In this document: positions 6,922 through 33,373 of the stretch, in pieces
Layout of the letters: every line of letters starts with the position of its first letter
Numbering within the stretch: position 1 is the stretch's first letter
From: Anaerolineae bacterium
Lineage (GTDB): Bacteria; Chloroflexota; Anaerolineae; Aggregatilineales; Phototrophicaceae
Direction of reading: 5' to 3'
DNA length: 36,414 nt
Assembly (NCBI GenBank): GCA_030950085.1
Contig: JAUZRW010000053.1
Span: forward strand, 1 to 36,414
Made by a program: the position numbers and the translations under genes
Notes under the pieces: model-generated
What the model was told of the DNA's origin: nothing
Database searches by the model: none
The model's input: only the letters and a program-made list of their open reading frames with translations

Positions 6922-7022
6922 ATGAATCGTAGGTTGCGTATCTCCTCGCCTTGACGCAGAATCATGATATAACAAACTCAGTAAATCACAGATTCGCAGT
7001 TTATCATCATTTTTGTTCATAA

Positions 7023-7092
7023 CGGACGGGATATATCCCGTCCCTACAGGTCAATATGGTTCATTTGTAGGGACAGCATACATGCTGTCCGC
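7023..7092. repeat. Double-hairpin palindromic repeat, copy A
   Basis: GGACGGGATATATCCCGTCC (7024-7043) is a perfect 20-bp palindrome followed by CTAC. About 25 bases later comes GTAG followed by GGACAGCATACATGCTGTCC (7071-7090), also palindromic. The CCCTAC…GTAGGG bases between the hairpins are complementary, so the whole can fold as a cruciform. The same design with other hairpin sequences recurs at 17993 and 26284. Confidence 0.7.
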
Positions 7093-7145
7093 CGCAAAAC
7101 ACAAAATCGTGATTCACTGATACCATCCTAGTTGAAGGGAATTTT

Positions 7146-17886: not shown

Positions 17887-17992
17887 GAAATTTCGCTCCA
17901 AAATGCCTGTGTTGGGTACAGCATAAGACAAAATTGTATGAAAGCAGATAGTATATTGAGGTGCATTGCAGAAAAGTGGCACACGTTGAATT

Positions 17993-18061
17993 GGGCAAGA
18001 TACATCTTGCCCCTACGCTCAAAATACCTTGATTATTGTAGGGGTTTAGCGTGCTAAACCC
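17993..18061. repeat. Double-hairpin palindromic repeat, copy B
   Basis: GGGCAAGATACATCTTGCCC (17993-18012) and GGGTTTAGCGTGCTAAACCC (18042-18061) are both perfect inverted repeats with a 2-base centre. The bases between them are CCTAC…GTAGG, as in copy A. The hairpin sequences differ completely from copy A while the pairing is kept. Confidence 0.7.
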
Positions 18062-18140
18062 ATTTCGCCAAAACATTGAAATGCACCTGTTTGTGGGTCA
18101 TCATAACATGGCACAAGAAGGGGCGCTATGTACAGACGAT

Positions 18141-26283: not shown

Positions 26284-26352
26284 CGGACGAGATGTATCTC
26301 ATCCCTACGGTTCAAAAATTATATTTCGTAGGGGCTGGCTTCTGCCTGTCCG
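26284..26352. repeat. Double-hairpin palindromic repeat, copy C
   Basis: GGACGAGATGTATCTCATCC (26285-26304; one mismatched pair) is followed by CTACGG. After about 22 bases comes CGTAGGGGCTGGCTTCTGCC and TGTCC, a decayed second hairpin. The layout and the CCCTAC…GTAGGG core match copies A and B. It lies between the convergent radA and decarboxylase genes. Confidence 0.65.
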
Positions 26353-32246: not shown

Positions 32247-32316
32247 CTCGCTTGACTGTTACTTCGGGCGCACACGCGAGTACGCCCCTACCCAAATCAG
32301 GTCATCTGCGTAACGT
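32247..32316. repeat. Dispersed hairpin repeat (TTGACTGTTA…GCCCCTAC family), copy 2
   Basis: TTGACTGTTACTTCGGGCGC is followed by CGCCCCTAC and TGCGTAACG, in the same order and nearly the same spacing as the copy at 4332. GTACTCGC (32244-32251) and GCGAGTAC (32276-32283) form an extra perfect 8-bp inverted repeat here. Confidence 0.6.
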
Positions 32317-33272: not shown

Positions 33273-33373
33273 CTTACGCACCAAACCTAATCTTGGTAGG
33301 GGAGTGCCTATGTGCGCTCCCGAACGGGCGACCACACAGGGTCCGCCCCTACGAATAAAATGCCTTTTGCGTC
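33273..33373. repeat. Double-hairpin palindromic repeat, copy D
   Basis: The outer arms TTACGCA and TTGCGTCACG flank GTAGGGG…CCCCTAC (about 33297-33350). Inside are two imperfect hairpins, GGGAGTGC…GCGCTCCC and GGGCGACC…GGTCCGCCC. It combines features of the two other hairpin families (GTAGGG core and TGCGTNACG end). Confidence 0.55.

Follow-up and report, generated by a model that had tools for sequence, protein, structure and literature searches.

The window analysed here, a stretch of 36,414 nucleotides from an Anaerolineae bacterium, carries three sites (7024-7090, 17993-18061 and 26285-26351) built as hairpin-CTAC-spacer-GTAG-hairpin, the parts of which are listed in Table 1. The pattern CCTACN{0,30}GTAGG occurs three times in the window where 0.23 matches are expected, and a count of three was reached in none of 100 shuffles. 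These repeats are GTAG-tagged REPs, each unit consisting of GTAG, a stem of about 9 bp and a short loop, arranged as polar tail-to-tail heterodimers. The first-pass annotation had described hairpin-CCTAC…GTAGG-hairpin at four sites, and the description stands for those at 7023, 17993 and 26284, with the quoted stem sequences correct and the third copy pairing imperfectly (8 of 9 pairs in the left stem, 6 Watson-Crick pairs in the right). It does not stand for the site at 33273, which reads GTAG-hairpin-hairpin-CTAC, head-to-head. Because its feet lie outside and its loops are longer, this pair is a different REP type, one that recurs at L053, L068 and L089. As had been claimed, all four sites fall between ORFs, in contexts that are, in order, tandem, divergent, convergent and divergent. 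Overlooked in the earlier reading were longer elements centred on copies 1 and 2, with TIRs in common with other copies. An Rfam search of the window gave no match. Two more single GTAGGGGC hairpins lie on the minus strand of the window, at 32291 and 4380.

Table 1. Repeat units, spacers and shells in the window, with positions counted from its first nucleotide
Feature	Positions	Strand	Remarks
Copy 1, REP unit A stem-loop GGACGGGAT.AT.ATCCCGTCC	7024-7043	-	GTAG at 7044-7047, - strand
Copy 1, CTAC...GTAG	7044-7070	.	spacer 19 nt
Copy 1, REP unit B stem-loop GGACAGCAT.AC.ATGCTGTCC	7071-7090	+	
Copy 1, type ii MITE-like shell, 143 bp	6978-7120	.	ends TCAGTAAATCACAGATTC (6978-6995) and, inverted, TCAGTGAATCACGATTTT (7103-7120)
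Copy 2, REP unit A stem-loop GGGCAAGAT.GT.ATCTTGCCC	17993-18012	-	
Copy 2, CTAC...GTAG with spacer	18013-18041	.	
Copy 2, REP unit B stem-loop GGGTTTAGC.GT.GCTAAACCC	18042-18061	+	
Copy 2, type iii MITE-like shell, 124 bp	17962-18085	.	TIR TGCATTKCA...; 3 further copies in sample
Copy 3, REP unit A stem-loop GGATGAGAT.AC.ATCTCGTCC	26285-26304	-	one G·T pair
Copy 3, CTAC...GTAG with spacer	26305-26331	.	
Copy 3, REP unit B stem-loop GGGCTGGC.TTCT.GCCTGTCC	26332-26351	+	two imperfect pairs
Head-to-head REP pair	33296-33352	.	GTAG 33296-33299; hairpins 33300-33321 and 33326-33348; CTAC 33349-33352

Genomic copies and paired change in the stems

The assembly holding the window comprises 5.09 Mb in 266 contigs and is rated 97% complete. 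Collecting the genomic copies, as the first-pass annotation had proposed, returned 90 dimer sites of the form CCCTACN{5,35}GTAGGG, against 44 for a reversed-pattern control. GTAG is the tetramer found most often directly before a perfect stem of at least 8 bp (25 of 1576 occurrences in 0.42 Mb). The dimers were studied in 1.29 Mb of stretches, about a quarter of the genome, which form a non-random sample partly picked for containing dimers. Units were gathered by CCTAC…GTAGG alone, without a pairing criterion, and 7 chance sites were removed by eye, which left 54 dimers with 80 distinct 20-nt units. Nearly all dimers can be oriented as unit A-spacer-unit B, with a spacer motif in common, and their stem families are partnered: GGACGNGAT with GGACAGCAT, GGACGTGA.TTTT with GGACAGGC.TTCT, GGACACAAT with GGACAGTAT, and GGGCAAGAT with GGGTTTAGC. 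Sister genera keep the A/B design with different stems, as in G015, whose arrays of about 100 bp combine GGACGCGGC.CT and GGACAACGC.CC.

The arms of these stems covary, which supports selection for structure, one of two explanations that the first-pass annotation had offered. Across the 80 units, 533 of 720 cells are paired, against 397±10 when the 3′ arms are dealt anew (maximum 430 in 2000). Among 85 pairs of units with exactly two stem differences, 27 have these at partner positions where 5.0 are expected, so that the test of covariation proposed at the outset does find an excess of paired changes in the 1.29-Mb sample. On a minimum spanning tree of the units, 19 double Watson-Crick changes are counted, against 0-3 when partners are slid, alongside 141 single-side changes. 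When 68 units are aligned in register, pairing extends to 90.5% of the cells, compared with 73.6±1.0% after shuffling and no more than 44.6% after sliding, and the score for covariation reaches 0.534, where shuffling gives 0.215±0.014 and sliding no more than 0.184; this alignment dropped indel-shifted units and therefore leans towards structure, which the 80-unit test does not. Because covariation is present among near-identical units, pairing has been maintained recently. The result comes from one genome and does not assume pairing, and it means that REP stems evolve by way of paired change.

The other explanation, in which copying would rewrite both arms, was not borne out. One-sided intermediates are common, and imperfect pairs on the GTAG strand are biased, with 37 G·T against 12 A·C (p = 0.0005), in A and B units; selection for pairing predicts such a bias, and blind copying from a template predicts none. 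For dimers in tandem gene contexts, G·T and A·C stand at 10:4 both where the GTAG strand has the sense of the transcript and where it is antisense. The counts are small, and the bias points to a GTAG strand that folds as DNA. A strand signature of this kind, an excess of G·T relative to A·C in the GTAG strand that does not depend on transcription, can tell DNA-level recognition from RNA function.

Mapping the dimers relative to gene ends, also proposed earlier, showed that convergent junctions are favoured and divergent ones avoided. With crude gene calls, 12 of 41 dimers lie between convergent genes, which hold 11.5% of intergenic bases (p = 0.002), and 4 of 41 between divergent genes, which hold 29% (p = 0.005). 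The repeats thus have the features of the GTAG REP superfamily: an unpaired GTAG at the end of a stem-loop, high copy number with mainly extragenic location, and complementary stem variants. In a REPIN the inverted doublet is the replicating unit; here doublets are abundant and polar, yet the boundaries of the repeat often lie further out, in shells.

MITE-like shells around the dimers

The least expected part of the analysis is this nesting, in which many dimers lie within MITE-like transposon shells of other types. Three shells recur, each with other TIRs: type i of about 133 bp, type ii, the 143-bp shell around copy 1 of the window, and type iii, the 124-bp shell around copy 2. The right flank of copy 3 is similar to the type i shell, and some dimers lie in no shell that could be recognised. 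Scored generically for inverted repeats, the cores taken together exceed random intergenic positions only slightly, with 10 of 53 dimers beyond the 95th percentile, so the shells rest on their recurrence and on target duplications.

Such duplications are clearest for type i. Among ten short elements, the 8-bp flanks match at 8/8 positions at L010, L071, L107 and L128 and at 7/8 at L060 and L005, so that six combine TIRs with a target-site duplication in the manner of a MITE. The interior is a REP dimer in L010 and L060, and a half core or another interior in L071, L128, L107 and L005. As duplications of 8 bp occur with and without a REP dimer, the dimer is one possible core of the type i shell, and the interiors that hold no full dimer imply that cores have been exchanged or recombined. 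The ends of type i match a multicopy element that breaks contigs, the end peptides of which resemble an IS66 transposase by eye and gave no match in a profile search. Two Pfam IS66 matches (C228 and C131) were considered as the source of these ends and rejected, being a different IS66 copy. For type ii, the TIRs recur and 3-bp repeats (AAC/AAC, AAC/AAC and ATT/ATT) flank 3 of 6 copies, with the window copy agreeing at 2/3 bases only. Folded as a single strand, the element of copy 1 scores z = -4.9 and -5.8, the minus strand (z = -5.8) being cloverleaf-like. Joining flanks to look for empty sites produced no clean case; the single candidate, at L028, is weak and lies in a TTTGTTAAACAA repeat.

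Several smaller observations concern these elements. The type i shells at L107:8713-8847, L071:8949-9094 and L128:158-301 have perfect 8-bp duplications around a non-dimer or half-dimer interior. Single GTAGGGGC hairpins occur in a type iv context (L021:12724, L028:4176, L063:7736 and L075:6530) and in a type v context (L020:2912 and L035:53). The type iv arms (TAGTACATGACCAA...) enclose two different hairpins, GGGCGCAA.GGCA and GGGCTAGGC.GT, whole stems thus differing in the same surroundings. At many contig ends, for example in C13, C36, C57, C86, C90, C150 and C175, the assembly breaks about 138 bp into the multicopy IS66-like element, and the missing pieces may conceal more RAYTs.

RAYT genes and the proposed mechanism

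A search of the genome for REP-associated tyrosine transposases (RAYTs), suggested by the first-pass annotation, did recover a REP/RAYT link. A Pfam PF01797 (Y1_Tnp) search matched solely a protein of 604 aa whose Y1 domain is degenerate, which first suggested that the genome has no RAYT. This was overturned by a query with the RAYT protein of a sister genus, the gene of which is followed by GTAGGGGC REPs; the query identified two genes, C29:10789-11343(-) and C13:9153-9791. The C29 gene has identical GTAGGGGCGCATGGCAATGCGCCC REPs on both flanks, and further REPs of this type occur with compensated stems. The C13 gene (L019:9153-9791) contains a full double-foot REP, GTAGGGGCGCAGCGCGCTACGCCCCTAC, in frame in the linker, where it is read as VGAQRATPL. 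As in a REPtron, RAYTs with HUH and Tyr motifs are thus present in the same genome (NHFH and YIKTNP in C29, NHVH and YIDNNP in C13), their NCBIfam REP_Tyr_transpos matches (E = 6.5e-18 and 2.5e-15, respectively) both lying below the curated cut-off. The best RAYT similarity is to a Caldilineae record.

Among 67 parsed RAYT loci, drawn from relatives and from a genome collection, a REP lies inside the gene at 45 and in the flanks at 44. Where a locus has both, the two share the same stem in 23 of 32 cases, against 107 of 1948 comparisons (5.5%) between loci. In G046, GGAC units with GGACGAGGC.CT/GGACAACGC.CT lie upstream of the RAYT and inside its frame, and these stems are also present in the G015 dimers. 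RAYTs that bear or are flanked by REPs are found for GTAGGGGC REPs in this genome and for GGAC units in sister genera, one of which has a RAYT decorated with heterodimers like those of the window; two RAYT queries of the 97%-complete assembly found none adjoining its own GGAC-type heterodimers.

We think it likely that the repeats belong to a REP/RAYT system in which recognition of the folded GTAG strand by the RAYT makes stems change in pairs. The RAYT would recognise this strand as single-stranded DNA, by means of the GTAG, the loop and an intact stem, with the exact stem sequence mattering less, so that stems might change only in pairs. Loss of a base pair would lead to a unit being mobilised less, which would favour a second change that restores the pair, and different RAYT lineages would fix different stems. 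The biochemistry of a group 3 TnpAREP agrees with recognition of GTAG and an intact stem: block changes in the stem are tolerated, a mismatch in the stem nearly abolishes cleavage, and the inverse strand is inactive (PMC8266576). Because the cognate RAYT was not found in the assembly, we infer only that the window's GGAC heterodimers are, or at one time were, substrates of a RAYT. In a second step of dispersal, a DDE transposase would spread dimers inside type i shells. Judged from the 8-bp target duplications and from ends like those of the genome's own IS66-like element, type i copies are probably spread in this way. The present number of dimers may be owed to other transposases, since many lie inside MITE-like shells, some with target duplications. 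We tentatively propose, as a possibility somewhat short of even, that REP dimers are exchangeable cores of several unrelated MITE-like shells, which RAYT and DDE transposases jointly disperse while diversifying the hairpins. If this nested-shell reading is true, it would explain how REPs can outlast the loss of their own RAYT, by travelling inside other elements.

Three other readings were weighed. The dimers could be passive cargo of TIR-bearing MITEs moved by DDE transposases, their cores being relics of old RAYT lineages under no current RAYT selection. Three recurrent shells with differing TIRs, type i duplications that occur with and without a full REP core, ends that match a multicopy IS66-like element, and the failure to find a RAYT specific to these stems in the assembly all agree with this reading. 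We nevertheless regard it as doubtful, as some dimers are shell-free, a relative has tandem arrays of the A/B design, and covariation of near-identical units indicates that pairing was kept until recently. Quasipalindrome correction is an established process in bacteria, and template switching within a palindrome could rewrite one arm from the other, keeping the pairing without selection. The whole-stem differences within type iv arms would fit such a process, which is made very unlikely by the 141 single against 19 double Watson-Crick changes, by the G·T bias of single-side changes on the GTAG strand, and by the stems following RAYT loci.

The hairpins could also be maintained as RNA elements at gene ends, acting in termination, protection of mRNA 3′ ends or attenuation, with pairing selected in the transcript. 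Enrichment at convergent junctions and scarcity at divergent ones, as for REPs generally (PMC3733652), would be expected of such elements. However, an intrinsic terminator, with a GC stem followed by a T run, was looked for at copy 1 and not found. Transcription across a tail-to-tail dimer reads just one of its units in the GTAG sense, yet both units have the bias, at 10:4 and 10:4, whatever the direction of transcription, and the GTAG foot and the link to RAYT genes are left unexplained, so we consider a role in RNA improbable.

Comparison with known systems

Earlier papers have described stem variation that preserves complementarity, REPs specific to a RAYT, and REPs lying within RAYT genes (PMC3733652, PMC2817692, PMC3686654, PMC6006769). 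GTAG REPs are known from Chloroflexi and cyanobacteria, in some genomes within longer palindromes (Di Nocera et al., 2013, PMC3733652). The repeats described here share with that superfamily the unpaired GTAG foot, a short stem and loop, a position downstream of genes, TT/HH heterodimers and families whose stem variants remain complementary, and differ from it in having several shell types in one genome. The C13 RAYT resembles TnpAREP subclass 2.4 of the REPtron/RAYT classification in its NHVH, WQ and YIxNNP motifs (Quentin et al., 2018, PMC6006769). It also has the remarkable feature of that subclass, a double-foot REP inserted in the RAYT gene, and the presence of REPs inside RAYT genes, already described there, was dropped as a novelty. 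The C29 RAYT is unlike subclass 2.4, with REPs outside the gene and YIKTNP.

REPINs likewise are dispersed inverted REP doublets with compensatory hairpin changes, proposed RAYT mobilisation and tandem clusters (Bertels and Rainey, 2011, PMC3116915), but here the GTAG feet point inward (TT) and each doublet joins two unlike, polar REPs, units A and B. The REPs and RAYTs of Stenotrophomonas also have a perfect palindrome right after the foot and several REP classes per genome, and their preserved palindromes were described as "suggesting selection for complementary mutations" (Nunvar et al., 2010, PMC2817692); here, more stem types occur within one dimer family, and no RAYT adjoining the window's type was found in the assembly. 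With IS66-type MITEs, type i has in common ends that start with GTA(A/T)C, an 8-bp target duplication and the ends of a multicopy IS66-like element, while its core is a REP dimer; the family assignment is our inference from an IS that is not assembled in full.

The 604-aa protein (G000:C18:8399-8722; L016:25-1839) has a C-terminal Y1 domain with a degenerate HUH motif (HQD) and an apparent Tyr-to-Phe change. Large open frames like it, with this domain, occur in many of 41 related genomes, and such proteins possibly carry a domesticated, inactive hairpin-binding domain.
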